Shown here: positions 6,413 to 26,264 of the stretch, piece by piece
Position numbering within the stretch: the stretch's first letter is position 1
Layout: the number at the start of each line of letters is the position of its first letter
Assembly: GCA_003604985.1 (NCBI GenBank)
Contig: QZIW01000055.1
Coordinates: 1 to 37,400 of the forward strand
Length of the DNA stretch: 37,400 nucleotides
Direction of reading: 5' to 3'
Source: Ammonifex sp.
Lineage (GTDB): Bacteria > Bacillota > Desulfotomaculia > Desulfotomaculales > Ammonificaceae
The notes under the pieces: generated by a model
Told to the model about the DNA's origin: nothing
Seen by the model: the letters and a program-made list of their open reading frames with translations, nothing else
Database searches by the model: none
Position numbers and translations under genes: made by a program

Positions 6413-6561
6413 ACCCAGGAATTTTCCCCCGCCGAAAAGAGGAATTTCAGGCTGTTTTAGCGAATGGCAAAATTATATGAACAAGCAGTTCTTTTTTCTT
6501 TTTCAGGGGATTTGAGAAGTATATCGCGTAAGGATTATCATCCTAAAAAGGGGTTTTGCAG

Positions 6562-7149
6562 GTGATACTTCTCGGCGGGAAGAGCAGTACCGAACCCGAT
6601 TTTATAAGTGCGGTGGCCCGGGCAAGCGGTCATGCCACACTGTTGCATTGCTACCAGTGCGGGAAGTGTACGGCAGGATGTCCCCTGGCTTTCGGCATGG
6701 ACCATAAGCCGAACCAGATTATCCGTCTCCTCCAGTTAGGCCGTATAAAACAAGTCCTCGGTTCGCGTGCGATCTGGATTTGCGCCGGGTGTTGGACGTG
6801 TACCACACGCTGCCCGTGCGGCATTGACATCGCCCAGGTTATGGACAGCCTCCGGGTCCTCGCCCGGAACGAAGGGGAAACCGTACAGGGCAAGGACGTG
6901 GTCTCGTTTAACGAACTCTTTCTTCAGTCGGTGCGGCGCAACGGCAGGGTTTTCGAGTTCGGTGTGTTCATGGGGCGTAATTTACGGCGCAGGAAACCCT
7001 TCCTCGATGCGGATCTGGGAAGGTTTATGCTGACGCGGGGGAAACTCCGCCTCACCGCCGAGAGAATTAAGGGCACGAAAGAGGTAAGACGGCTTTTTTC
7101 CAGGCAAGGCGCGCCGGTGCGGAATCCCAAGGAAAGGACTAAAGAATGA
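6562..7149 (+). CDS. hdrC: HdrC-like heterodisulfide reductase iron-sulfur subunit
   Basis: Subunit C of a soluble heterodisulfide-reductase-type complex, 195 aa, passing electrons between HdrA and HdrB. Two [4Fe-4S] motifs are visible: Cys30-33-36-40 (CYQCGKCTAGCP) and Cys74-77-80-84 (CAGCWTCTTRCP). These are followed by the usual C-terminal helical region; there is no membrane segment. GTG 6562 is the start because AAAAGGGG ends 8 nt before it; the TTG at 6556 sits only 2 nt from that site. First gene of the seven-gene hdr-flx operon; its stop overlaps the hdrB start by 4 nt (ATGA). Confidence 0.9.
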   Translation: MILLGGKSSTEPDFISAVARASGHATLLHCYQCGKCTAGCPLAFGMDHKPNQIIRLLQLGRIKQVLGSRAIWICAGCWTCTTRCPCGIDIAQVMDSLRVLARNEGETVQGKDVVSFNELFLQSVRRNGRVFEFGVFMGRNLRRRKPFLDADLGRFMLTRGKLRLTAERIKGTKEVRRLFSRQGAPVRNPKERTKE

Positions 7150-8006
7150 AAATCGGATACTACCCCGGCTGTTCGCTTCAGAGCAGCGCCAAGGAATACG
7201 ACCGTGCCACCCGCTTGGTGGCGCGGCACCTGGGGATCCAGTTGCACGATATTAACGATTGGAACTGCTGTGGGGCCACCGCGGCCCACAGCATGGATCA
7301 TTTCCTCGCGGCGGCGCTCCCCGCGCGGAACCTGATCATCGCTGAGGAGATGGGCCTGGACGTGACCGTCCCTTGTGCCGCGTGTTACCAGCGGCTGCGT
7401 CTGGCCCACCGGGTACTTGCCGAAAACGAAGAAACGGCCCGGGATATCTCTCAGTTGATCGGTCGCCCTTATAAGGGCAAGGTGCGCATTTACTCCCTGA
7501 TTGAGACTATCGCGGGTATAGGGCTGGAGCAGCTTGCGGCGCAGGTCGTGCGGCCGCTTAAGGAGCTGCGGGTGGCCTGCTATTACGGTTGCCTCCTGGT
7601 GCGGCCCCCCGGTACCGGCTGCGACGACCCGGAGAACCCGCGGTTGATGGATGAGCTGTTGGAAGCCGCCAAGGCCGAGACGCTGGACTGGGGTTATAAA
7701 AACGAATGCTGCGGCGCTTCGCTGGTTTTCAGCGAACGCCGTTTGGCGCTGCACCTTATTCGCAACATACTGCGGAACGCGGTCGATGCCGGGGCCACAA
7801 GTATAGCGTGCGCCTGCCCGCTCTGTCAGAGCAACCTTGACACGCGCCAGGGGCAGGTTAATAAAGAGTTCGGGACAAGCTTTGCCATGCCGATTTTTTA
7901 CTTCCCTCAACTTTTGGGCCTGGCGATGGGTCTCAACCCCCAGGACCTGGGTCTGGGGATGCATTTCGTTGACCCGCAGCGGGCCATAAAGGCGGTAAGC
8001 GGCTGA
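7146..8006 (+). CDS. hdrB: HdrB-like heterodisulfide reductase catalytic subunit
   Basis: 286-aa subunit with two CCG domains. The first has Cys9, Cys41-Cys42 and Cys77-x2-Cys80; the second has Cys149, Cys188-Cys189 and Cys224-x2-Cys227. In methanogen HdrB this arrangement binds two non-cubane [4Fe-4S] clusters that cleave the disulfide. The natural disulfide substrate in non-methanogens is unknown; a DsrC-like protein or another small thiol is often proposed. The start overlaps the hdrC stop by 4 nt, indicating coupling. It is followed after 53 bp by hdrA, which has its own ribosome site. Confidence 0.92.
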   Translation: MKIGYYPGCSLQSSAKEYDRATRLVARHLGIQLHDINDWNCCGATAAHSMDHFLAAALPARNLIIAEEMGLDVTVPCAACYQRLRLAHRVLAENEETARDISQLIGRPYKGKVRIYSLIETIAGIGLEQLAAQVVRPLKELRVACYYGCLLVRPPGTGCDDPENPRLMDELLEAAKAETLDWGYKNECCGASLVFSERRLALHLIRNILRNAVDAGATSIACACPLCQSNLDTRQGQVNKEFGTSFAMPIFYFPQLLGLAMGLNPQDLGLGMHFVDPQRAIKAVSG

Positions 8007-8059
8007 TTTGCGGGTACGGCTCCAACCTAATTTAAAGGCAGTGTAAGAGGAGGAAAACC

Positions 8060-10045
8060 TTGCCGAGGATCGGCGTATTCGTCTGCTGGTGTGGATCCAA
8101 TATCGGAGGGGTGCTTGATTGTCCTGCCATCGCGCAGGAAGCGGCATCATTCCCCGGTGTGGTCTTTAGTACGGAGTATAAATACGTCTGCTCCGACCCG
8201 GGGCAGAAGCTTATTGTAGACGCCATCAAGGAGCACCGGCTCGAGCGGGTTGTTGTGGCCTCCTGCTCGCCAAGGTTGCACGAAGAGACCTTCCGGCAGG
8301 TGCTCAGGCGCAGCGGGCTAAACCCCTATTTTCTCGAGATGGCCAACCTGCGCGAACACTGTTCGTGGGTCCACCCGGATACCCCGGAGCAGGCGCAGCG
8401 GAAAGCGGTTGACCTTGTTCGCCGCGCCGCTGCCAAAGCCGCGCGGCTGGAACCTTTATTCCCCGGAAAAATCCCCGTTGTCAGGCGCTGCCTGGTAATC
8501 GGCGGCGGAATTGCGGGCATACAGACGGCGCTCGATGTCGCCGACGCCGGGCTTGAGGTTCTGCTGGTCGAGCGGGAGCCTACCATCGGGGGTAATATGG
8601 TCAAACTGGACAAGACCTTCCCCACGCTTGACTGCTCCGCCTGTATCAGTACCCCGAAAATGGTGGCGGCAGCCCAGCATCCCAATATTAAACTTTACAC
8701 GTACGCGCAGGTCGAAGAAATAACCGGCTATATCGGTAATTTCAAGGCCCGCATCCGCCAGAAAGCCCGTTTTGTAGACCATGCCAAATGCACCGGTTGC
8801 GGCACCTGCTGGACCAAGTGTCCGGTCAGCGTGCCGGACGATTTCAACCTCGGTCTCGGCGAGCGCGGGGCGATTCACATCCCGTTCCCGCAGGCTGTGC
8901 CCAACAAACCGGTAATTGATCTGGCGCACTGCCGCCGGTCCACAAGGGGGAAATGCGGCGCTTGCGCCAAGCTCTGTCCCGCCGGGGCGATTGATTACGA
9001 ACAGAAGGATGAATTTATCGAGGCCGAGGTCGGGGCGATTGTGGTAGCGACCGGTTACGGGCTGTTCCCCTGGGAGAAGGTTTACGGCGAGTACGGGTAC
9101 GGGCGGTTTCCCGACGTCATCACCGGCCTGATGTTCGAACGCATGGTGAACGCTTCCGGCCCCACGAGCGGGAAAATACAGCGCCCTTCCTCCGGGAAGG
9201 AACCCAGAACCGTGGTTTTCATCCAGTGCGTCGGCTCCCGGGACGAGGCCAGGGGGAAGGAGTATTGCTCCCGGTTCTGCTGCATGTACACCGCGAAGCA
9301 CGCGCACCAGGTTTTGGAGAAAATTCCCGGGTCCGAGGTGTACGTATTCTACATCGACGTCCGGACTTTCGGCAAAGGGTATGAAGAGTTTTACAGGCGC
9401 GTCCAGGACGAGGGCGCGGTTTACATCCGGGGGCGGGTGTCGAAGGTCTACCAGGACGGTTCAAAGCTGATCGTGAAAGGCGCGGATACCCTGCTCGGAG
9501 AGCAGGTGGAAATAGCGGCCGATATGGTGGTCCTGGCTACGGGAGCCGTGCCGGCGGCAGGGGCGGCGGATGTCGCCCGGATGATCGGCATTCCCCAGGA
9601 TAAAGACGGCTTCTTCCAGGAGGCGCACCCGAAGCTTCGCCCGGTGGAGACGCATACCGGCGGGGTTTTCCTGGCGGGGACCTGCCAGGGGCCCAAGGAT
9701 ATCCCCGATACCGTTTCCCAGGCGAGTGGCGCGGCGGCCAAAGTCTGCGGGCTCCTTTTAAAGGATGAACTCGAAACAAACCCGCTGGTGAGCAGGGTGA
9801 ACGAGGCGCTTTGCACCGGTTGTCTTGCCTGTCAGCCGGTTTGCCCTTACCGCGCAATCCAACCCGTAACCATCACCGAGCGCCTGCCGGGCCAGCCGCC
9901 GCGGGAAAGGGTGGTCGCCCGGGTCAACGAGGGGTTGTGCCAGGGATGCGGCGCCTGTACGGTCGCTTGCCGTGCGGGGGCCATTGACCTGAAAGGTTTT
10001 ACAAACAAGCAGTTGCTTGCGGAGGTTGACGCCCTTTGTCTGTAA
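8060..10045 (+). CDS. hdrA: HdrA-like FAD/iron-sulfur subunit
   Basis: 661-aa bifurcating core subunit of an Hdr complex. An N-terminal domain has CWCG (Cys9, Cys11) and a [10 protein letters not shown] stretch. The thioredoxin-reductase-like FAD fold has GGGIAG at about 148-153 and the HdrA-specific [15 protein letters not shown]. An inserted ferredoxin unit ([12 protein letters not shown] at about 243, then CGACAKLCP) and two C-terminal [4Fe-4S] motifs ([12 protein letters not shown] at about 585 and [12 protein letters not shown] at about 627) complete it. In known complexes the HdrA flavin splits electrons between ferredoxin and HdrB. TTG start preceded by AAGAGGAGG. The length is typical of single HdrA units, with no fused NfnB or second HdrA module. 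Confidence 0.93.
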
Positions 10046-10491
10046 ACGAACGCGACGTTGGGACCACTACGGAAGGCGCCGCCTGGGAGCCGAAGATTGT
10101 GGCGTTTTTATGCAACTGGTGCAGCTATGCCGGCGCTGATCTGGCGGGGGTAAGCAGGGTTAAATACCCGGCCAACGTTAGGATAATCAGGGTGCCCTGC
10201 TCGAGCCGCGTCAACCCGCAGTTTATCCTCCGGGCTTTCGAGCGCGGCGCGGACGGGGTTCTGGTTGCGGGGTGCCATCCGGGTGACTGCCATTACGTGA
10301 CCGGCAACTACTTTACCCGGCGCCGTCTTACGCTGTTTAAACGGCTTTTGGAGTACGTGGGGTTTGAACCGGAAAGGCTCAAGGTGCGATGGGTTTCAGC
10401 TTCGGAAGGGCAACGTTTCGCCGAAACGGTAAAGGAAATGGTAGACGGCATAAAGCACCTCGGTCCCCAAAAACGCATTGCCAGACTCTAA
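10036..10491 (+). CDS. flxD: MvhD/FlxD-type [2Fe-2S] electron-transfer subunit
   Basis: 151-aa protein of the MvhD/FrhD family that connects HdrA to its electron-input module. Conserved cysteines are visible in CNWC near the start, in [10 protein letters not shown], and in GCHPGDCHY in the middle. It overlaps the end of hdrA by 10 nt, using TTG 10036 with GGAGG 10 nt upstream inside hdrA. In methanogens the partner is the Mvh hydrogenase. Here no hydrogenase follows; instead flxC, flxB and flxA-type genes do, which fits the Flx (NADH-linked) form of the complex. Confidence 0.88.
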
Positions 10492-10595
10492 TTACCCAGC
10501 ACTCAATGCGGCTTTTAGAAGGTACTCTTAACCGTGAGCCATTAAATACCGAGACACCTTTTGTCTGTGCAATTAGCGATTTGAGTGCTGGGTAA
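10492..10595. repeat. 104-bp element bounded by a perfect 15-bp inverted repeat
   Basis: TTACCCAGCACTCAA at 10492-10506 is repeated as its exact reverse complement at 10581-10595, with 74 bp between. The left arm begins on the base after the flxD stop codon. No ORF lies inside. It could be a small non-autonomous mobile element or a long-range RNA stem between flxD and flxC. No obvious target-site duplication was seen. Confidence 0.7.
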
Positions 10596-10655
10596 GAGCT
10601 TGTCAGCCATAAGTCCGGAGACCGCGAAAAACGAGCATGGCGCGGAAGGCGTTGA

Positions 10656-10753
10656 GAAGTGGAATGTGAGAAGTTGGAAGTGAGAATAAAGGGTGGAATT
10701 CGCCAGGCGAATTCCTTCGGTCCTCTCACCTCTAATCTCACACTTCGCACTTC
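10656..10753. repeat. Long imperfect palindrome, about 48-bp arms
   Basis: A perfect 10-bp core palindrome (GGAATTCGCC-A-GGCGAATTCC, 10695-10715) sits at the centre. Outside it, further complementary blocks follow in order: GTGAGA/TCTCAC, TGTGAGA/TCTCACA and GAAGTG/CACTTC. The whole 98 bp can fold into one long hairpin. It lies between flxD and flxC and resembles a MITE- or REP-like intergenic repeat. Genome-wide copies would decide this. Confidence 0.7.
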
Positions 10754-10804
10754 CCAATTGTCAGGTGTCGTTTTGCAGCGGTTTTTCCGATGAGGGAGAT
10801 ATCA

Positions 10805-11770
10805 GTGAAAGAGATAACCGAAGTCCTGCAGCGGGTGGCAGCCCGACTTTTCAACGAAGGATTGGAAATGTTCATCGGTTACGAGTCCGGAAGCGGGCTT
10901 GCAAAGGCGCGGCCTTTTTTTGCCGCCGCGCAGGAAGAGACCGCGGCACTCGTTTTCAACCCGTTTTGCGTGCACAACCTGGCCAAATATCTCGTTCGTT
11001 TTCCCAAAGCGAAGATTGCGGTAGTGGTCAAAGGGTGCGACAGCGGCGCGGTTGAGAGACTTGTGCGGGAACGAAACCTCGACCGCACCAAGATAACCGT
11101 TATCGGCGTTCCGTGCGGGGGTATGCTTGCGCGGGAAAAGGTTATGGCCGAGTTGCCTCAGGACGCTGAGATTACGACGGTTACCGACCGGCGTGACGCC
11201 TTCGTCCTTCAAACCTCCAAGGATGAGCGCGTACTCGATAAAAAGGCCTACCTTCTGGAAAAGTGCCTGACTTGTTCCCAAAACAACCCGGTCGGGGTGG
11301 ACCTGATGCTCGGCAAGGAGGCGCCCCCCGTGGGTGAACCGGGTAAAGACCCATTTGCACGGCTAAAAGAAATTTCAGCGCTTGCTCCGCCCGCAAGAGC
11401 GGCTTTTTGGGACAGGTTGATGAAGCGCTGCCTGCGTTGTTATGCCTGCCGGGAAGTCTGCCCGGCTTGTAGTTGCACCGAGTGCTGCTTCGAGCAGGCG
11501 GTTCCGGGGTGGCAGAAGGGGGCGACCTGGCTGAGCAAGGCCATAACCCTGTCTGACAACTACCATTACCACCTGATACGGGCGTTTCACGCCGCGGGCC
11601 GGTGCACGGGCTGTGGGGAGTGCGAGCGCGTCTGCCCGGTGCGGATACCGCTGATGCTGCTCAATAAAAAATTGGCCGGGGATGTCGAAGAGCTGTTTGG
11701 TCCGGCGCCGCCGGATGCTCCATCCGCACTCTACACGTACTCGGCCGGCGATAAGGATGAATTTTCCTAA
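10805..11770 (+). CDS. flxC: FlxC-like 4Fe-4S protein of the Hdr/Flx complex
   Basis: Iron-sulfur protein of about 321 aa. Its N-terminal half resembles the F420-hydrogenase/dehydrogenase beta-type fold (VVKGCDSGAV, IGVPCGGM). Its C-terminal half is Cys-rich: CLTC, then CLRCYACREVCPACSCTECC, then CTGCGECERVCP, sufficient for two to three [4Fe-4S] clusters. It is assigned as FlxC by its place between flxD and flxB and by architecture. GTG 10805 has GGGAG 6 nt upstream, while ATG 10790 (5 residues longer) lacks a clear ribosome site; either could be used. The roughly 300 bp before it are repeat-rich, so its translation is not coupled to flxD. Confidence 0.75.
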   Translation: MKEITEVLQRVAARLFNEGLEMFIGYESGSGLAKARPFFAAAQEETAALVFNPFCVHNLAKYLVRFPKAKIAVVVKGCDSGAVERLVRERNLDRTKITVIGVPCGGMLAREKVMAELPQDAEITTVTDRRDAFVLQTSKDERVLDKKAYLLEKCLTCSQNNPVGVDLMLGKEAPPVGEPGKDPFARLKEISALAPPARAAFWDRLMKRCLRCYACREVCPACSCTECCFEQAVPGWQKGATWLSKAITLSDNYHYHLIRAFHAAGRCTGCGECERVCPVRIPLMLLNKKLAGDVEELFGPAPPDAPSALYTYSAGDKDEFS

Positions 11771-11864
11771 AAAACCTGCTGGTGCGGTTACCCCGGTGAC
11801 TAAAAGCCTTTGAGAAAAGTGATTTAGTCCTTGAATACGGTGGATTTACCTAAGGAGTTTGGAA

Positions 11865-12893
11865 ATGGATTCTAAAATCATTAAAAAAGAAAAGCTGCTG
11901 TCGCTTCTCGAGCGGTTCATCGCGGATTATCATGTGCTGGCACCCGTACGGGAAGACGGCGTGCTTTTCTACCGCCCGGTGGATATACCCGGGGATATCG
12001 AGCTGAACCCCGGGAGGAGCGTGCTGCCGCCTAAAGGCCGTCTCTTCCCCCAGACTGAAGCCCTCTATGGTTACCGCGTCGAAGGGGAAAAGCTTACGCT
12101 GAACGAGTACGTGGAGGAGGAGCGCCAGGTTGTCCTTTTCGGGGTTCACCCGTGCGATCTTCGCAGCTTTGCGGTGCTTGACGCGGTTTTCCTGGAGGAG
12201 CCGCGGGATGCGTATTTTGCCGCCCGCCGGAACAACACCGTGCTTGTAGGGGTAAGTTGTTCTTCCGTTCTGCCGGAGTGCTTCTGCACCACCTACGGGA
12301 TTTCGCCGGTTGAGGGTAACGGCGCGGACATTCACCTTACCGACGTCGGGGCGGGGGCTTACCTGGTCGAGATTTTGACCCCGAGAGGCAAGGATTTGCT
12401 GCAGAAATTCGAGAGCTTCTTCGAAGACAACGTGGCCGGGGCCGCGGAGGCCAAAAGGGCCAAGGAGGCGTCCCTTGTTAAAAAGATCAGTCTTCAGGTG
12501 AAAGTGGACGGCCTTCACGAAAAAATGGCGTCAATATTCGAAAATCCATACTGGGAAAAACTCAGCCGGCGGTGCCTTGGTTGCGGCGTATGCACTTACG
12601 TATGCCCGACCTGCCACTGTTTCGACATCATGGATGACGGCACAAAGGAGGAAGGGGAACGGTTCCGGTGTTGGGACTCGTGTCTTTTTCGCGAGTATAC
12701 GCTACACACCAGCGGACACAACCCCAGGCACGCGCTGGCCCAGCGCCTGAGAAACCGTTTCTTCCACAAACTGAGTTACAACAACCAGCGTTACAATACC
12801 GAGGGGTGCGTGGGCTGCGGCAGGTGCGTAGCACTCTGCCCGGTGAACATCGACATCCGAGAGGTTATCGGCACCGTAAGGGGGCTCGTCTAA
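11865..12893 (+). CDS. flxB: FlxB-like / AsrA-HydB family 4Fe-4S dicluster protein
   Basis: 342-aa protein related to anaerobic sulfite reductase subunit A and sulfhydrogenase beta subunit. The N-terminal domain contains GVHPCDL and GVSCS motifs. The C-terminal part carries CLGCGVCTYVCPTCHC and CVGCGRCVALCP, two ferredoxin-type [4Fe-4S] motifs. It would carry electrons between FlxA and the FlxC/FlxD side. ATG 11865 is used since TAAGGAG lies 7 nt before it. The stop codon is immediately followed by the flxA ATG (TAA-ATG), showing coupling. Confidence 0.85.
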   Translation: MDSKIIKKEKLLSLLERFIADYHVLAPVREDGVLFYRPVDIPGDIELNPGRSVLPPKGRLFPQTEALYGYRVEGEKLTLNEYVEEERQVVLFGVHPCDLRSFAVLDAVFLEEPRDAYFAARRNNTVLVGVSCSSVLPECFCTTYGISPVEGNGADIHLTDVGAGAYLVEILTPRGKDLLQKFESFFEDNVAGAAEAKRAKEASLVKKISLQVKVDGLHEKMASIFENPYWEKLSRRCLGCGVCTYVCPTCHCFDIMDDGTKEEGERFRCWDSCLFREYTLHTSGHNPRHALAQRLRNRFFHKLSYNNQRYNTEGCVGCGRCVALCPVNIDIREVIGTVRGLV

Positions 12894-13736
12894 ATGGGGG
12901 TATCCAACCCGCTTCTTCCCAGAGTGGCTACCGTGGTGGACATTATCCGGGAGACCGGTGACGTCAACACTTTCCGCGTGGTGTTTGACGACCTGGAGGA
13001 AATGGCCGCGTGGAACCACCGGCCGGGACAAGTGGCAATGCTTTCTGTCTTCGGTGTTGGGGAGGCGACGTTCTGCCTGTCTTCGTCCCCAACCTGCAGG
13101 GACTGGCTGGAATTCAGCGTTCGGCGCGCCGGGAAGGTTACCACGGCGCTGCACGAACTTGAACCCGGGGCCAAGGTCGGGGTCCGCGGACCTTACGGCA
13201 ACAGTTTCCCTTATGAGGCGATGCGCGGGAAGCACCTCCTTGTTATCGGCGGCGGTATCGGGCTTGCCCCTTTGCGCCCGCTGGTCAATTTTATGCTCGC
13301 CCCGGAAAACCGAAAAGATTACGGTAAAATTGAGATCATATACGGCGGCCGTTCTTATAACGACCTGTGTTACAAGGAAGAGCTTTTCCGTACCTGGCCC
13401 GAGGCGCCGGACGTCACGGTGTGGACGACCATCGACGTTGCGGAGGAAGCATGGCAGGGACACGTCGGGTTTGTGCCGGCGTACGTTGAGGAAGTGAAAC
13501 CCACACCCGAAGACAAATTCGTGGTTATCTGCGGCCCGCCGATCATGATCAAGTTTACGGTGAAAGCGTTGGAAAATCTGGGATTTGCGGCCGACCATAT
13601 TTACACTACGCTTGAAATGCGAATGAAATGCGGTATCGGCAAGTGCGGCCGCTGCAACGTAGGGGCAAGGTTCGTCTGTCGGGACGGCCCGGTTTTCAGT
13701 CTGACGGAGTTGAATCAACTGCCGCAGGAGTATTAG
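12894..13736 (+). CDS. flxA: FlxA-like FAD/NAD(P)H-binding reductase subunit
   Basis: 280-aa ferredoxin-reductase-type flavoprotein of the AsrB/HydG/PyrK group. An FAD-binding barrel comes first (RPGQVAML and LSSSP), then the NAD-binding domain with GGGIGLAPLRPL, then a C-terminal Cys-rich [2Fe-2S] site (KCGIGKCGRCN followed by Cys in FVCRDGP). It is the likely NAD(H) entry or exit point of the Hdr/Flx complex. In Desulfovibrio the Flx-Hdr proteins are linked to NADH oxidation with ferredoxin and disulfide reduction. It is the last gene of the operon, followed by a hairpin terminator. Confidence 0.88.
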   Translation: MGVSNPLLPRVATVVDIIRETGDVNTFRVVFDDLEEMAAWNHRPGQVAMLSVFGVGEATFCLSSSPTCRDWLEFSVRRAGKVTTALHELEPGAKVGVRGPYGNSFPYEAMRGKHLLVIGGGIGLAPLRPLVNFMLAPENRKDYGKIEIIYGGRSYNDLCYKEELFRTWPEAPDVTVWTTIDVAEEAWQGHVGFVPAYVEEVKPTPEDKFVVICGPPIMIKFTVKALENLGFAADHIYTTLEMRMKCGIGKCGRCNVGARFVCRDGPVFSLTELNQLPQEY

Positions 13737-18662: not shown

Positions 18663-19550
18663 TTAGAGGCCGGCCTTCGCCAGGATCTCGGGGACCACTT
18701 CCTCCTTGCCAATGGCCATAATGTGTACGCCGTCGCAGATGGCGTCTTTTTTCAAGGCGGCTATCATCCGGCCGGCGATTTCGATACCTTTATGGAGTGC
18801 CCTACCCCTTCCGGCGTTTGCCAGCTCATCAATGAGGTCCTGCGGCACCACAATACCCGGGATGTTGGCGTTAATAAACTTGGCCATACCAACCGATGTG
18901 AGCAGCACAATGCCGGCCAGAATCTTGACGGGGAACTGGCGGGCGTATTCCATGAATTTTGCGAACCTCTCAAGGTCATAAATCGCCTGCGTTTGAAAGA
19001 ACTCGGCTCCGGCCTCAACTTTCTTTTCAAATTTAATTAATTGCGGTTCAATCGGTGTTGCTTCGGGTGTTACCACGGCCCCCGCGCAAAAACTGACGCC
19101 GCCTTCAAGGTCGTTGCCCGCCATATCCTTACCGGCTTCCATTTGCCTGACTGCACGGAGCAACTGCACCGAATCCAGATCGAAGACGCCTTTGGCCCCT
19201 TTATGGTCGCCGACGATTACGGAATCACCCGTAAGGCATAAGACGTTGTTTATGCCCCTCGTATGCGCCAGCATCAGGTCTGCCTGGAGCGCAAGCCTGT
19301 TGCGGTCCCGGCACGTCATTTGGAGTACGGGCTCGCCGCCCTTCTCTTTCACGGAAAGGCATCCACCCAGAGAGGGAAAGCGCATTACGGAACTCTGGTG
19401 GTCGGTTACATTTAAGGCATCTACCCGGTACTTGAGCAAATCGACGTGGTGGAGCATCTGGGTGAGGTCGGTGCCTTTCGGTGGGCCGATTTCACACGTC
19501 ACCAGAAACTTTCCGGAATTAAGGGCCTCTTTGAACTTAGACACTGCCAT
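18663..19550 (-). CDS. metF: MetF of the MetFV-type methylenetetrahydrofolate reductase
   Basis: 295-aa FAD-binding TIM-barrel protein of the methylene-THF reductase family, interconverting 5,10-methylene-THF and 5-methyl-THF. Family features are the N-terminal CEIGPPKG (place of the catalytic Glu), NVTDHQ, and LCLTGDS with the Asp of the flavin site. It lacks the NAD(P)H-using bacterial form's usual length and pairs with MetV, whose gene overlaps it by 14 nt. This is the arrangement of acetogenic reductases that take electrons from a partner module. ATG 19550 has GAGGAGAA 5 nt upstream. Last gene of the operon with the NuoE/NuoF-like and FDH-like subunits. Confidence 0.9.
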   Translation of the reverse strand: MAVSKFKEALNSGKFLVTCEIGPPKGTDLTQMLHHVDLLKYRVDALNVTDHQSSVMRFPSLGGCLSVKEKGGEPVLQMTCRDRNRLALQADLMLAHTRGINNVLCLTGDSVIVGDHKGAKGVFDLDSVQLLRAVRQMEAGKDMAGNDLEGGVSFCAGAVVTPEATPIEPQLIKFEKKVEAGAEFFQTQAIYDLERFAKFMEYARQFPVKILAGIVLLTSVGMAKFINANIPGIVVPQDLIDELANAGRGRALHKGIEIAGRMIAALKKDAICDGVHIMAIGKEEVVPEILAKAGL

Positions 19551-20211
19551 CTTGATTCTCCTCACTCGTCCTAATTCTGACCGATTTCGGCCGGGGTGCC
19601 GTTTGATAGTTCTTGGGCGGGTGATATTTTCGCATCAGATCGAGCCGGCCCTGAAGTTTCAACCGGCGGTAAATCAGGGTCCAGGCGCAATCCTTTTCCT
19701 TGTCCACCTCGCACTTACCGTCGTTGGTCCCACCGCACGGTCCGTTTAAAAGTCCTTTATTACATTCACTAACCGGGCAAATACCGGCGGTTTCGCCCAG
19801 CACGCACTGGCCGCACTGGATACAGACCTCCCTGAAGTGGCCGGGCTTTTCTTCGAGGCCGATAAACAAGGTATCAAGTGCGGGGATGACCGGATTGTTG
19901 GTGTAGGTGCTTATGCGGTGTACGCCGAGCGCACACGCCATAACCAGAACGCAACCGGCGTTGCGTATGGGACGTTCGTTTTCTTTCATCGCCACTTCAG
20001 TCATCTCGTCGCAGGCGATGGGGATGACGGTCCAGCCGGTTATAGTCTTTTCCAGCCCCTCCAGGTAATCTCTCATCTCGAGTACCTGGTCCTTGCCCCC
20101 GGTCCTGGTCATGGTGGTGCAGGTGCCACAACCTAAGATATAAACATGGTCAAATCCCTTAAGGTATTGTTGTATTTCGTCAAGCGTTTTCCGTTTTGTG
20201 ATGGACCTCAT
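19537..20211 (-). CDS. metV: MetV, zinc/iron-sulfur partner of MetF
   Basis: 224-aa methylene-THF reductase C-terminal-domain protein. The Cys-rich part is characteristic: CGTC near residue 28, then CIQCGQCVLGETAGICPVSEC with NGPCGG and KCEVDKEKDC toward the C-terminus. In acetogens MetV forms the MetFV heterodimer and relays electrons to MetF. ATG 20211 has GGGGGG a few nt upstream. It starts 48 nt after the NuoF-like gene and overlaps metF, so all are one transcription unit. Confidence 0.9.
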   Translation of the reverse strand: MRSITKRKTLDEIQQYLKGFDHVYILGCGTCTTMTRTGGKDQVLEMRDYLEGLEKTITGWTVIPIACDEMTEVAMKENERPIRNAGCVLVMACALGVHRISTYTNNPVIPALDTLFIGLEEKPGHFREVCIQCGQCVLGETAGICPVSECNKGLLNGPCGGTNDGKCEVDKEKDCAWTLIYRRLKLQGRLDLMRKYHPPKNYQTAPRPKSVRIRTSEENQDGSV

Positions 20212-20259: not shown

Positions 20260-21885
20260 CTATACTTTTCGGCGCAGGGGGCGGCACTGGTTGGCAGGGC
20301 ACTTTTTCTTTTTTATGTGTGCCTCGTATTCATCTCTAAAGTAGCTTAACGTTGACAGTACCGGGTTCGGACAGGTCTGCCCCAGACCGCAGAGGGAGCA
20401 TTCCTTGACCGTCCTGGCTATTTCGTAAAGCGTGGCGATGTCGTTTTCTTTCCCTTTGCCCTTGGTGATTCGTGTGAGGATCTCCAGCATCTGCTTTGTT
20501 CCAAGGCGGCAGGGAACGCATTTCCCACAAGATTCCGCCTGGGTGAAGCTCAGGAAGTAGCGGGCCACCTCCACCATGCAGGTGGTTTCGTCCATAACCA
20601 CCATACCACCGGAGCCCATAATTGAACCCAGTAACGTTAAGGTTTCATAATCCACGGGGGTGTCCGGAAATCTGGCCGGAATACATCCTCCCGACGGTCC
20701 GCCTGTTTGCACCGCTTTCAAGCGTTTGCCGTCGGGGATGCCACCGCCGATGTCGAAAATGATGGTCGATAATGAAGTACCCATCGGCACCTCTACCAGT
20801 CCGCTGTTCAATATTTTACCGCTGAGCGCAAGTACTGTGGTTCCTTTGCTTTTTTCGCTGCCGATACCGGCAAACCAATCCGCACCGCGGTCAATAATCC
20901 TTGGGACGGAAGCCAGTGTTTTCACGTTGTTAATAGTGGTGGGCTTCCCGAAAAGGCCCGATTGGGCCGGGTAAGGGGGACGGGGGCGGGGCATACCCCG
21001 TTGGCTTTGAATGGAAGCGATAAGCGCGGTTTCCTCCCCGCAAACAAAAGCCCCGGCGCCTTCTTTCATGTGTATTTCAAAATCAAACCCAGAGCCCAAG
21101 ATGTTTTTTCCGAGCAAACCTCTTTCTCTGGCCTGCTCTATGGCAATATAGAGTCGTTTAACCGCTAAAGGATACTCGGCGCGAATGTAAAAATAACCGT
21201 CATTGGCGCCAATGGCGTAACCGGCAATAATCAGACCTTCAATTGCGGCGTGGGGGTCGGCCTCGAGGACGGATCGGTCCATGAAGGCGCCGGGATCACC
21301 TTCATCGGCGTTACAGACTACATATTTTTTATCACTGTAAGTATTGCGGCCAAACTCCCACTTGCGCCCGGTGGGGAATCCCGCGCCCCCACGCCCGCGA
21401 AGACCGGACTTTTTTATTTCGTCTATAACTTGTTGGGGCGCCATTTCCAACAGGACTTTATTAAGCGCACGGTAACCTCCCGCCGCAATGTAGTGGTCGA
21501 TCTTCTCGGGGTTGATATGCCCGCAATTATACAGGATGACGCGCCGCTGTTTCTTGTAGAAATTTATATCGCGGTAATACGATACGGCCTTACCGGTCGC
21601 GGGATCATGGTAGAACAACCGCTCCACCGGCTTTCCGTCCTTTAGGTGGGAGCCGGCGATTTCCGGTACGTCCTCCACCTTGACGTGGGTATAAAAAATG
21701 CCTTCCGGCTCAACGACCACAATGCCGCCTTTTTCACAAAAACCGTGGCAACCGGTAAAATCTACATCTACATTGCTTAGTCCGAGTTTGGCCACCTCGG
21801 CCTTAAGCTCCTCGTAGACCAGACCGGATTTACTTGAGAGGCATCCTGTTCCCTGACAGACGAAAATAGTAGACCGGTTTTGCAC
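20260..21885 (-). CDS. nuoF: NuoF/HydB-like NADH-binding flavoprotein subunit
   Basis: 541-aa FMN/NADH subunit. An N-terminal thioredoxin-like [2Fe-2S] domain has Cys10, Cys15, Cys46 and Cys50. The NuoF core has GRGGAGFPTG for NADH and NADEGDPGAFMDR for FMN, followed by a SLBB region. The [4Fe-4S] site is SCGKCVPCRLGT plus a later Cys in GLGQTCP. Many HydB/HymB relatives continue with a C-terminal 2x[4Fe-4S] ferredoxin domain; this one stops at CPANQCRPLRRKV, without it. GTG 21885 follows directly on the NuoE-like stop (TAG-GTG). In context it should connect NAD(H) to the MetFV reductase. Confidence 0.9.
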   Translation of the reverse strand: MQNRSTIFVCQGTGCLSSKSGLVYEELKAEVAKLGLSNVDVDFTGCHGFCEKGGIVVVEPEGIFYTHVKVEDVPEIAGSHLKDGKPVERLFYHDPATGKAVSYYRDINFYKKQRRVILYNCGHINPEKIDHYIAAGGYRALNKVLLEMAPQQVIDEIKKSGLRGRGGAGFPTGRKWEFGRNTYSDKKYVVCNADEGDPGAFMDRSVLEADPHAAIEGLIIAGYAIGANDGYFYIRAEYPLAVKRLYIAIEQARERGLLGKNILGSGFDFEIHMKEGAGAFVCGEETALIASIQSQRGMPRPRPPYPAQSGLFGKPTTINNVKTLASVPRIIDRGADWFAGIGSEKSKGTTVLALSGKILNSGLVEVPMGTSLSTIIFDIGGGIPDGKRLKAVQTGGPSGGCIPARFPDTPVDYETLTLLGSIMGSGGMVVMDETTCMVEVARYFLSFTQAESCGKCVPCRLGTKQMLEILTRITKGKGKENDIATLYEIARTVKECSLCGLGQTCPNPVLSTLSYFRDEYEAHIKKKKCPANQCRPLRRKV

Positions 21886-22368
21886 CTATGCTTCACCCTT
21901 TTTAAGCAACTGCTCGATCTTTTGGGTATCCATTTTACCGTAAACTTCCTTACCGATAACCACATTGGGAGCAAGAGCGCAAACACCAATGCAGGCCACG
22001 GTTTCAAGGGAATATTCCATATCTGCAGTAGTCTCGCCTTCTTTTATGCCAAGGCCGTTTTCCAACATTTCGAGAAGCGATTCACCTCCCCGAACGTGAC
22101 ACGCGGTCCCGCGGCATACGGTTATAACCTGTCTGCCGCGTGGTTTTGTGTAAAACTGCGCGTAAAACGAGATCACACCCTGTACCTGGCTGGGGAAAAT
22201 CTTCAGGCCAATAGCGATCACGTGAATCGCTTCGGGAGGAATGTACCCGAATTCGTTTTGGATTTTTTGGATCACGGGTATCAGGGCCCATTTATGCCCG
22301 CCACACTCCATGACAATTTCTCTAATTCGTTCCATGTTAATTACTTTGCTTGCTGCCGGCTTGTCCAT
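21886..22368 (-). CDS. nuoE: NuoE-like [2Fe-2S] subunit
   Basis: 160-aa thioredoxin-fold [2Fe-2S] protein of the NuoE/HydC/HymA family, with all four ligands: Cys85, Cys90, Cys126 and Cys130 (CRGTAC and CIGVC). The N-terminal helical part contains LIPVIQKIQNEFGYIP. It works with NuoF-like flavoproteins in NADH dehydrogenases, bifurcating hydrogenases and formate dehydrogenases. ATG 22368 (32-nt overlap with the upstream gene) has a modest AAGGA site; ATG 22335 directly after the upstream stop (TAA-C-ATG) is an alternative. Confidence 0.9.
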   Translation of the reverse strand: MDKPAASKVINMERIREIVMECGGHKWALIPVIQKIQNEFGYIPPEAIHVIAIGLKIFPSQVQGVISFYAQFYTKPRGRQVITVCRGTACHVRGGESLLEMLENGLGIKEGETTADMEYSLETVACIGVCALAPNVVIGKEVYGKMDTQKIEQLLKKGEA

Positions 22369-25054
22369 GGGAACCTATCCTTTCTATCTTTACGCTGACG
22401 CACTTAACAATAGGGGTCTTGCGTTCCAGGTCCAGGATGATGTCCAAAAGCTGACTGACCGGATTACAGGCGAGTGCAAAAGGCATAAAAACTACTCTCT
22501 CGGGCAGAGTATCGGAGATTCGGGCGGTAGCGACGATCTCGCTGGTAGAAGAAGCTATTCTTAACCTATCGCCTTCGCTCACTTCCAACTTTTCGGCATC
22601 CGCTTCCCCGATGTCGACGAAAGCGTCCAAGGAGTATTTCCGCAACCGCGGCGCCCGGGAGGTTCTCGTACCGCCGGCGAAATGGTACAGGTTGCTTCCT
22701 GTTAGGAGAAGGAATGGGTACTCCCCGTTCGTTCTATCCGGCGTTGCCGTCATGTGAACGAGATAAAAGCTGGGTATCCTATCCGGGCGTTTTCGGTAAA
22801 CAAGCGGCGATCTAAAACCACCTTTTGCCCGGACCTGGTCTAGGGGTTCCTCAGGCGAACCATAACCTATACCTTTATACAGCGGTACCAGTTTTCCGAT
22901 CTCCTCCCTCACCTCGCGTGGCGAGGAGTAAAACATCGCATGCCCCATCCTTGCCGCCAGCTTGATAACGATGTCCCAATCCGGTATGCTCTGTCCCGGA
23001 GGTTGTACAGCCTTCGTTAACCAGTTGACTCTTCCGTCGAAACTGGTGAACGTCCCCTCTTTTTCCGCAAAGCTGGCCGCGGGCAGAACGACATTAGACA
23101 ACTTTGCGGTTCTAGTCATAAACAGGTCCTGTACCACAAGAAAATTGAGTGAACTCAAAGCCTCGCTGACGAATTTGCTGTTCGGGAAAGAAGCCGCGGG
23201 GTTTTCACCGACTATGTACATCCCCTTGATAGTCCCTGCTTTGGCTCCTTTAATCATTTCGAACGCAGTCAAGCCGGCCGCAGCCGGTATTATTCCCCAA
23301 TAATCTTCGAATGTTCTTCTGGACTTTAAGTCGGAAACCTGTTGATATCCCGGGAGGAAATCCGGTAAGGCTCCCATGTCGCAAGCACCCTGTGCGTTGT
23401 TTTCTTTTTGCAGGGGGTAAATGCACGTACCCTTGCTACGGCTTCCGGTAAGTAGGGCAAGATTCGTGAGCGCCTTGATGGCGTCCGTCCCGTTGACGTG
23501 TTGTGTGATGCCGTGACCGTATACAATTGCCGCTTTTCCGCTGGTGGCGTATTCACGGGCTGCTTTAACGATCTCTGTGTATGGAACTCCGGTAGCCTTT
23601 TCCACGAATGCGGCAGTGTATGCAGACAGGCTTTTTGCAAATGCCTTGAAATCTATTGTCTCTTCGCTTATCTCCGCATCGTGTAAACCTTCGTCGATAA
23701 TAGCTTTAGCCATGCCGTTTAGAAGGATTAGATCTGTGCCGACCTTGGGTCGGAGCCAGGTTTCTGCAAACATGGATAGACGCGTTTCCCTCGGGTCAAT
23801 CAAGACCAGCTTTGCGTCCATGCATCTGACAGCGCGCTTGATGGTGTAACCGACAAGAGGCGCGGACACGGTGGGGTCCGCCCCGACCACGAGGATAACG
23901 TCCGCTTTTTCCATGGCGGTCAGGGAATTAGTGGCACCGAAAAATCCGCTTGCGGGGTCACAACTTGTCAGGCCGGGAGTACCGTACAACCGGCTGCCGT
24001 TGTCAATGTTGTTTGTGCCCAGTACACATCTGGCGAACCGCTGGAGGAGATAATTCTCTTCGTTGGTGCACTTGGATGAACCGAAAACGGCCAGGCTGTT
24101 GCTGCCATATCTACTCTTTATTCTTTTGAACTCTGCGGTAATAACATTGAAAGCCTCTTCCCAGGATGCGGCCTCAAAATGGTCGTCTACCTTTATCAAC
24201 GGGGTGGTGAGCCTGTCCCGGCTCTGGATGAAATCGAAACCATAGCTCCCCTTAACGCACAGGGTACCGCGGGTAACCGGGTCGTCGTTGTTCGGGATTA
24301 CCCGCACCACGCGTCCCTCTTTGACCTTAAGGCGAACGGTGCACCCACACCCGCAGAAGGGACAGGTCGTCGGGACGGAGGTTCCGGCCGTCCCCCTGTA
24401 CAGGGGTTCCGCTTCCATCAGCGCCCCGGTCGGGCACATCGCCACACAAGTGCCGCAGAAGGTACACTCCGATTCTTCCAAGGGGGTATCACCGGCCGTA
24501 GCCGGTCTGGCGACAAACCCCCGCCGGTAATAATCGACCGCCCCTTCAATAACAAGTTCCTGACAGGCTCTGATACATTTGGCGCACAAAATGCATTTGC
24601 TTAAGTTGCGTTTTATGAACGGGTTGGCGTCTGTGATCGTCGACATTAACGGAATTCGTTGAAATCTCACCAGACCGATACCCATATCGGCGGCTACCTG
24701 GCGCAGTTGACAGCGGTTGCCTTTCAGGCAGACCATGCAGGAATCCGGGTGGCTGGCCAGCATTAACTCCACGATTGTCCTTCGTCTTTCAAGAACACGT
24801 TGTGAGGCGGTATTGATTACCATGCCGGGGGTGACGAAGGCGCCGCACGAAGTTATCAGATTGCCGCTGCGTTCCTCCTCTACAATGCAGACCCGGCAGC
24901 TGCTGATTGAGGGGCAGCCGCCTGCCGGAGCCAAGTGCGGTTCATGACAGATCGTGGGGATGTGGACGCCCTCTCTTCGCGCCAGCTCAAGGATGGTCAT
25001 CCCGGGTTCAGCGGCTACTTCCCTGCCGTTCAGGGTAACAGTAAATTCTTGCAA
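22337..25054 (-). CDS. FDH/NuoG-like molybdopterin oxidoreductase subunit lacking Sec/Cys
   Basis: 905-aa subunit. N-terminal [2Fe-2S] domain (Cys36, extra Cys47, Cys53, Cys56, Cys70); His-Cys3 [4Fe-4S] site (His102, Cys106, Cys109, Cys115); two ferredoxin [4Fe-4S] motifs (Cys154-164 and Cys197-207); then a molybdopterin domain with Cys231, 234, 238, 266 and Lys268 as in formate dehydrogenase. The FDH active site aligns without gaps to RLYGTP: Tyr357 stands where E. coli FdhF has Sec140, and Gly358 where it has His141. The C-terminal molybdopterin-dinucleotide fold is present. Formate oxidation is therefore unlikely. It is first in an operon with NuoE, NuoF, MetV and MetF, so it may be a scaffold or electron-path subunit of a methylene-THF reductase. 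TTG start after AAAGGGG. Confidence 0.85.
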   Translation of the reverse strand: MQEFTVTLNGREVAAEPGMTILELARREGVHIPTICHEPHLAPAGGCPSISSCRVCIVEEERSGNLITSCGAFVTPGMVINTASQRVLERRRTIVELMLASHPDSCMVCLKGNRCQLRQVAADMGIGLVRFQRIPLMSTITDANPFIKRNLSKCILCAKCIRACQELVIEGAVDYYRRGFVARPATAGDTPLEESECTFCGTCVAMCPTGALMEAEPLYRGTAGTSVPTTCPFCGCGCTVRLKVKEGRVVRVIPNNDDPVTRGTLCVKGSYGFDFIQSRDRLTTPLIKVDDHFEAASWEEAFNVITAEFKRIKSRYGSNSLAVFGSSKCTNEENYLLQRFARCVLGTNNIDNGSRLYGTPGLTSCDPASGFFGATNSLTAMEKADVILVVGADPTVSAPLVGYTIKRAVRCMDAKLVLIDPRETRLSMFAETWLRPKVGTDLILLNGMAKAIIDEGLHDAEISEETIDFKAFAKSLSAYTAAFVEKATGVPYTEIVKAAREYATSGKAAIVYGHGITQHVNGTDAIKALTNLALLTGSRSKGTCIYPLQKENNAQGACDMGALPDFLPGYQQVSDLKSRRTFEDYWGIIPAAAGLTAFEMIKGAKAGTIKGMYIVGENPAASFPNSKFVSEALSSLNFLVVQDLFMTRTAKLSNVVLPAASFAEKEGTFTSFDGRVNWLTKAVQPPGQSIPDWDIVIKLAARMGHAMFYSSPREVREEIGKLVPLYKGIGYGSPEEPLDQVRAKGGFRSPLVYRKRPDRIPSFYLVHMTATPDRTNGEYPFLLLTGSNLYHFAGGTRTSRAPRLRKYSLDAFVDIGEADAEKLEVSEGDRLRIASSTSEIVATARISDTLPERVVFMPFALACNPVSQLLDIILDLERKTPIVKCVSVKIERIGSHGQAGSKQSN

Positions 25055-25292: not shown

Positions 25293-26264
25293 GTGATAAA
25301 GGAGTTTTTCAATTACCGGCGACCGGTCGTGTCTTTCGAAATTTTTCCACCAAAAACAGAAGACAGGATGGAGATCGTTTCCAGGCTGGCTTCACAATTC
25401 AAGGAGCTTAATCCGTCTTTCATCAGTGTCACGTACGGTGCGGGTGGCACCACCCGGGACACGACGATCGAAGTCGCGACTTATCTTTCCCGGTTGGGAT
25501 TCGAGGTTATGGCCCACCTTACCGGCGTCGGTCACACGGCCGGTGAAATTGACGATATCTTAAGCCGACTTAAAGCCGGGGGAGTTGATGACATCCTTGC
25601 CCTGCGCGGGGACCCGCCGAAAGGGGTGGAAAACTTCGATTACGCCGCGGGTGATTTCAAGTTCGCGGTTGACCTTGTCCGGCACATCAGGCGCAGGGGC
25701 GGGTTTGGTGTAGCGGCCGCCGCCTATCCGGAAGGCCACATCGCTTCACCGCGCATAAAGCTGGACTGGATGCACTTGAAGGAAAAGGTCGACGCGGGCG
25801 TCGACTTTTTGATCACCCAGTTGTACTTTGACAACCGCGTTTTTTACAACTTTCTCGACAGCGTCCGGCGGCTCGGCATTGCGTGTCCCATCTCCGCCGG
25901 CATTCTTCCCGTTCTTAGCGCCGACGCGCTCAAACGCATGGTCACCCTTTGCGGTGCCGCCATACCGGCTAAACTGTGGGACATAATCGATAAGTACGCC
26001 GACGACCATGAAAGTCTGGAAAAAGCGGGGATCGAATACGCCACCGCCCAGGTGCACGACCTGGTGGAATACGGTGTTGACGGGGTGCACCTTTACACGC
26101 TCAACCGGGCGGAGTGGGTTGCCGCCGTATTGAAAGATACCGGCCTTGACCGCTATGAACATTTACCCGAGGCGTGGGAGTGGCAGCAGGTGCAGTATGG
26201 GGAGTTGCCTCCAGGGGGCCGGAATCCGGCGGTCTGGCAAGTCGTAGAACGAAGGGATTTATAA
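25293..26264 (+). CDS. metF: Methylenetetrahydrofolate reductase, classical NAD(P)H-type
   Basis: 323-aa FAD-dependent TIM-barrel enzyme reducing 5,10-methylene-THF to 5-methyl-THF, usually for methionine synthesis. Hallmarks are VSFEIFPPK with the catalytic Glu near the N-terminus, VTYGAGGTTRDTTIE, LALRGDPP, the AAAAYPEGH motif, and a QLYFDN stretch. It is longer than the MetFV-type protein nearby and carries a C-terminal segment after LYTLNRAEW. GTG 25293 is supported by AGGAGG 9 nt upstream. It is divergent from the MetFV operon, so two different methylene-THF reductases share one 238-bp control region. Confidence 0.92.
   Translation: MIKEFFNYRRPVVSFEIFPPKTEDRMEIVSRLASQFKELNPSFISVTYGAGGTTRDTTIEVATYLSRLGFEVMAHLTGVGHTAGEIDDILSRLKAGGVDDILALRGDPPKGVENFDYAAGDFKFAVDLVRHIRRRGGFGVAAAAYPEGHIASPRIKLDWMHLKEKVDAGVDFLITQLYFDNRVFYNFLDSVRRLGIACPISAGILPVLSADALKRMVTLCGAAIPAKLWDIIDKYADDHESLEKAGIEYATAQVHDLVEYGVDGVHLYTLNRAEWVAAVLKDTGLDRYEHLPEAWEWQQVQYGELPPGGRNPAVWQVVERRDL

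Follow-up and report, generated by a model that had tools for sequence, protein, structure and literature searches.

A formate dehydrogenase-like protein that has lost its catalytic residues: a probable Fe-S wire of an NADH-linked methylene-THF reductase in Ammonifex sp.

A five-gene cluster headed by FdhX

The window, a stretch of 37,400 nucleotides of Ammonifex sp. DNA, carries a compact operon in which genes for FdhX, NuoE, NuoF, MetV and MetF follow one another in this order, on one strand, with overlaps or gaps shorter than 50 bp (Table 1). FdhX, the first of these proteins, is a mosaic: its N-terminus matches the Pfam domains of NuoG (Fer2_4, NADH-G_4Fe-4S_3 and Fer4) and is followed by full molybdopterin oxidoreductase domains. 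The protein falls below the NCBIfam cut-offs of both equivalogs that it might be assigned to, formate dehydrogenase alpha (TIGR01591; 625.7 bits vs 666.25) and NuoG (TIGR01973; 329.5 bits vs 470.05), and no nuo membrane genes were found nearby among the window ORFs scanned.

Table 1. Coordinates of the FdhX operon and its divergent neighbour in the window
Feature	Position	Strand	Details
FdhX (formate-dehydrogenase-alpha/NuoG-like)	22337..25054	-	905 aa; TTG start at 25054
Tyr357-Gly358 codons, at the FdhF Sec140-His141 positions	23982..23987	-	by alignment; counted from the TTG start at 25054
NuoE-like [2Fe-2S] subunit	21886..22368	-	PF01257; 160 aa; start overlaps FdhX end
NuoF-like FMN/NADH subunit	20260..21885	-	PF01512, PF10589; 541 aa
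MetV, Fe-S subunit of methylene-THF reductase	19537..20211	-	NGPCGG motif; PF12225
MetF, flavin subunit of methylene-THF reductase	18663..19565	-	PF02219; overlaps MetV end
MetF2, canonical NAD(P)H-type MetF	25293..26264	+	TIGR00676 above cut-off

The NuoF of the window is short. Its N-terminal region has [2Fe-2S]-type cysteines (C10, C15, C46 and C50 in the alignment), and the protein ends after the NADH_4Fe-4S domain, with neither a GltD domain nor a C-terminal ferredoxin domain (Fer4 absent by Pfam). Exactly there, NuoF of the other phyla examined carries a fused GltD/NfnB-like domain; the fusion is absent from the window protein and four relatives. A frameshift behind the short form was rejected: L120-L123 have the same C-terminus.

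MetF2 is transcribed divergently from FdhX and is a conserved neighbour in three related loci (L120, L121 and L122). It is probably a separate enzyme; since it adjoins the FdhX cluster, the cells that carry these four loci would have two methylene-THF reductases. In clusters of the Desulfobacterota type (L042, L044, L057, L059 and L060), a further MetF paralogue (about 30% identical) is encoded on the FdhX strand, immediately upstream of FdhX.

Three catalytic residues replaced, Fe-S ligands kept

In a 94-row MAFFT alignment of FdhX, the real E. coli FdhF (NC_000913.3) and 92 homologues, FdhX residues 357 and 358 fall on Ec140 and Ec141, and the register continues without gaps from the active site through Gly391/Ec174 and Pro399/Ec182. 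A phmmer search of FdhX against solved formate dehydrogenases agrees with this register: the Tyr pairs with the Cys, and the Gly with the residue that follows. The first-pass annotation, which had put Tyr357 at Sec140 and Gly358 at His141 in a gapless downstream register, is thus borne out. The alignment adds a third loss: Arg333 of FdhF corresponds to Gln549. Sec/Cys, His and Arg, the three catalytic residues of formate dehydrogenases, are all replaced in FdhX, while the active-site His and Arg are highly conserved in all formate dehydrogenases (PMC7171172).

Could FdhX oxidize formate nonetheless? Formate dehydrogenase alpha subunits are its best match over the whole protein, but a working enzyme is barely credible: all three residues are gone, the TIGR01591 score is below the cut-off, and this genome has other formate dehydrogenase genes, which encode Sec-His or Cys-His. 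The earlier suspicion that automatic annotation would mislead here is supported. Neither the loss of Arg333 nor the NuoEF-MetVF operon, the context that decides what FdhX does, had been noticed in that annotation.

Could the tyrosine instead be a new metal ligand? Among 19 close FdhX homologues, the window protein included, position 357 is Tyr in 16, Thr in L121, Trp in L120 and Cys in L007; L121 (FdhX 82% identical) and L120 both belong to the genus of the window. Position 358 is occupied by Gly, Ser, Asn or Asp, never by His (0/19), and the Arg333 position is Gln in 15 of 18. In the more distant, Desulfobacterota-type group, Ser, Ala or His stands at Ec140 and Gly at Ec141. Because residue 357 varies in this way, a conserved, fixed metal ligand is unlikely, judging from these sequences; as the usual residue, Tyr may still serve the structure or some other purpose. 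Cys365, proposed as a possible metal-site Cys, fares no better: it is unique to the window protein (1/19), and its counterpart in the 82%-identical relative is Ser.

These substitutions bear directly on a second idea, that FdhX uses a bound Mo/W-bis-pterin to catalyse something other than the oxidation of formate, the metal being ligated by Tyr or by no residue at all; the first-pass annotation, too, had raised a Mo/W-pterin serving another reaction. Its complete fold, the many residues kept in the Mo domain and the prevalence of Tyr (16/19) are in favour. However, two of the three deviating residues at 357 occur within the same genus, L122 lacks five residues just after the active site, both His and Arg have been lost as well, the Mo domain shows relaxed evolution, and the neighbouring genes suggest no substrate. 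This reading is very unlikely.

What FdhX has kept is the wiring. All Fe-S ligands are present, including those of the [4Fe-4S] cluster of the Mo domain (C231, C234, C238 and C266), and Lys268, equivalent to Ec Lys44, is retained in the window protein, as had been claimed; part of the FdhX clade has Arg instead. Of the columns that are invariant in 59 catalytic formate dehydrogenases, FdhX matches 22/22 of those present in the N-terminus and 66/102 in the Mo domain. The Mo domain evolves faster than the Fe-S domain in the FdhX clade (divergence ratio 1.39; 1.50 in the Desulfobacterota type), a sign of relaxed evolution, and slower in true formate dehydrogenases (0.79). Yet it is still under constraint, with those 66 residues kept, and so may still bind pterin. 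With Fe-S ligands retained and the catalytic triad replaced, a role in electron conduction only, the other option offered at first pass, is the best-fitting one. The first [4Fe-4S] site, CxxCxxCxxxC, has residue 164 as its fourth ligand, and there a strict Cys/Asp toggle runs through the dead clade and the Desulfobacterota group as well as five true formate dehydrogenases; in these sequences Asp appears as if it were an accepted cluster ligand.

The AlphaFold2 model of FdhX has the formate dehydrogenase fold (mean pLDDT 78; TM-score to 1fdi 0.87 by target length), with pLDDT below 50 at residues 358-370. A Cys-containing formate dehydrogenase from the same genome (L083) was modelled as a control at equal alignment depth, and its equivalent residues, 346-356, are helical, with block means of 73-81. 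Since the alignments behind the two models are not of the same composition, the contrast serves as supporting evidence only.

Distribution, trees and a sister genus with a different module

In a scan of genome contigs and family genomes, the order FdhX-NuoE-NuoF-MetV-MetF is found wherever the contig is long enough, in 12/12 close loci; MetV is likewise present in 5/5 Desulfobacterota-type loci long enough to test. Loci without MetV are contig ends, or, in L012, a scaffold gap of N. The cluster occurs in Chloroflexota, Actinomycetota, Bacillota and Desulfobacterota. Within the window's phylum, a close FdhX is encoded by 1/398 evenly drawn genomes, the one being the window's own, but by 5/7 genomes of the same family. 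In the FdhX tree, the two dead groups form one branch (SH-aLRT 100) against 63 rows on the formate dehydrogenase side, which include a few independent losses of these residues, such as L053b with Ser-Asp. The MetV-MetF tree recovers the same grouping, with both groups together at 100/99. In L058, a 225-aa NuoG N-domain without a Mo domain precedes NuoE-NuoF-MetV; thus, the Fe-S part alone can occupy the position of FdhX.

The window genome is a metagenome-assembled genome, 73% complete, in which the search for PF12225 proteins found the window MetV and no other; the genome also has genes for acetyl-CoA synthase and formyl-THF synthetase. A respiratory sulfate-reducing lifestyle was considered and rejected, dsrA not being found in this 73% complete genome. 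The sister genus within this family (G007, L138) yielded no close FdhX, and its only MetV is 36% identical to that of the window and sits on another branch of the tree. That MetV is encoded in an HdrA-MvhD-MetVF cluster of the Moorella type, about 11 kb away from the gene for acetyl-CoA synthase. With HdrA-MvhD beside MetVF and no close FdhX in the sister genus, the FdhX-NuoEF module of the window stands in for the Hdr module. The window has an HdrCBA-MvhD set of its own (6556-10491), but on the opposite strand and apart from metVF, which follow NuoF. This set opens a cluster (6556-13736; HdrC-HdrB-HdrA-MvhD, then Fe-S proteins and a NAD-binding AsrB-like protein) that resembles the Hdr-Flox type; in L121 and L123, too, parts of it are found close to the FdhX cluster.

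Do these genes encode one enzyme or two? FdhX-NuoEF could be an NADH:acceptor oxidoreductase in its own right, reducing, for example, ferredoxin, and merely co-transcribed with metVF. There are precedents for each half of this argument: MetVF alone works as a ferredoxin-dependent enzyme in Clostridium ljungdahlii (PMC8515935), and the Stn genes of Sporomusa ovata adjoin metVF, yet the purified Stn complex is separate (PMC7483475). Against separate complexes stand the strict linkage and matching trees across several phyla, together with the replacement of HdrA-MvhD beside MetVF; this arrangement is therefore unlikely, though less so than a new reaction at the old active site.

A path for electrons from NADH to methylene-THF

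Gene order suggests that FdhX, NuoE, NuoF, MetV and MetF assemble into one complex, and their sequences suggest its function. With good confidence, FdhX descends from the alpha subunit of NAD-linked formate dehydrogenase, has lost catalysis and acts as the NuoG-like Fe-S wire in an NAD(H)-dependent methylene-THF reductase of five subunits. Because the catalytic residues are lost and the gene lies in an operon with NuoEF and MetVF, FdhX most likely does nothing but conduct electrons from NADH into CO2 fixation by the Wood-Ljungdahl pathway. By analogy with the layouts of R. capsulatus formate dehydrogenase and complex I (PMC7171172), NADH would reduce FMN in NuoF; electrons would then pass from the NuoF [4Fe-4S] cluster through the [2Fe-2S] and [4Fe-4S] clusters of FdhX to those of MetV; and the MetF flavin would reduce methylene-THF to methyl-THF, or run in reverse if acetate is oxidized. 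The Mo domain would persist as a scaffold or as a surface for docking, perhaps still holding an inert pterin.

The same complex could do more. In a flavin-based electron-bifurcating version, NADH would drive the reduction of methylene-THF and ferredoxin together; its probability is contained within that of the wire model, because only the mechanism differs, and it is a possibility rather than the expected case. NuoF of the window has bifurcation-type residues, GAFMDR and GGPSG (criteria of PMC7311640), that is, two of three, the placement of the third (T. maritima HydB position 367) being uncertain; among solved structures, it is closest to bifurcating BfuB/HydB chains (7t2r_B, 7q4v_B), and bifurcation by the X-type enzyme described below is speculated upon in PMC8515935. 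But the window NuoF and its four relatives have no C-terminal ferredoxin-type domain, which the Bfu definition demands (PMC9304861). A minimal bifurcating methylene-THF reductase can be imagined, in which a NuoF with neither ferredoxin domain nor GltD splits the NADH electrons, sending one to MetVF and the other through the clusters of the dead formate dehydrogenase to ferredoxin, with the formerly catalytic domain as a docking module; this specific form is somewhat more doubtful again.

How does the wire model relate to known systems? The closest is the X-type methylene-THF reductase, proposed in 2021 from NuoEFG homologues upstream of metFV in Dethiosulfatarculus sandiegensis, described as unstudied and possibly bifurcating, and said to occur widely among Desulfobacterales and Chloroflexi (PMC8515935). 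As in the window, metV-metF are immediately preceded by genes for NuoE, NuoF and a NuoG-like protein. The Desulfobacterota-type and Chloroflexota loci, which stand in for D. sandiegensis (itself absent from the MetVF tree), share one MetVF branch with the window, apart from the 6S type. The X-type differs in NuoF, short in the window's family and fused to the GltD/NfnB-like domain in the other phyla examined; the consulted part of PMC8515935 does not state the dead-formate-dehydrogenase nature of the large subunit. No later characterisation, measured NADH-dependent methylene-THF reduction included, was found in the literature searched. Sequence comparison adds to this proposal that (i) the large subunit is a formate dehydrogenase with a dead catalytic triad, whose branches match those of MetVF; (ii) the X-type extends to Bacillota and Actinomycetota, with a GltD-less NuoF variant in the window's family; and (iii) within one family, it and the Moorella-type Hdr-MetVF stand in for each other.

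Other relatives share only part of this plan. The Moorella-type (6S) enzyme, HdrABC-MvhD-MetVF, found in the sister genus (G007), also joins MetVF to an electron-input module, but the input is HdrA/MvhD, not NuoEF-FdhX. The Sporomusa-type Nfn (Stn/Nfn-Bfu) combines NuoE and NuoF with a GltD/NuoG-like subunit that carries a formate dehydrogenase annotation; its genes lie downstream of metVF in S. ovata (PMC7483475). This subunit, StnC, did not oxidize formate when measured. Unlike in the FdhX clusters, GltD is fused to StnC rather than NuoF, and Stn is an NADPH/NAD/ferredoxin transhydrogenase with no demonstrated action with MetVF (PMC7483475). R. capsulatus FdsABG (PMC7171172) has the same subunit plan and Fe-S chain, an alpha subunit with a NuoG-like N-terminus plus NuoF- and NuoE-like subunits; FdsA, however, has the metal-site Cys, His and Arg, of which FdhX has none. 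The formate dehydrogenase-like protein of Dehalococcoides (CISM, DET0187/OmeA) provides a precedent for a family member without catalytic Sec/Cys that is thought to transfer electrons (PMC5736913; PMC6258894), but it is close to FdnG-type enzymes and works in a membrane-bound dehalogenation complex with a hydrogenase and a reductive dehalogenase.

Which donor supplies methylene-THF reductase with electrons, and how the reaction is coupled to energy, is an open point in acetogen bioenergetics (PMC8515935, PMC8760232). The operon offers a concrete, expressible, five-gene version of a putative NADH-linked enzyme, and the family is a natural comparison because the sister genus uses the Hdr type. 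For annotation, the lesson is that a gene called "formate dehydrogenase" next to metVF in a genome of Chloroflexota, Desulfobacterota or Clostridia can wrongly suggest formate metabolism.

Two further loci show other combinations of these parts. L053 (13494-15974, minus strand) encodes a formate dehydrogenase-like protein beside NuoF, with Ser-Asp for Cys-His and Gln at the Arg position; it falls on the formate dehydrogenase side of the tree and represents an independent loss of catalytic residues. In L011 (7001-11250), MetV-MetF come straight after a Cys-His formate dehydrogenase, with no NuoEF, an arrangement that may be linked to formate.
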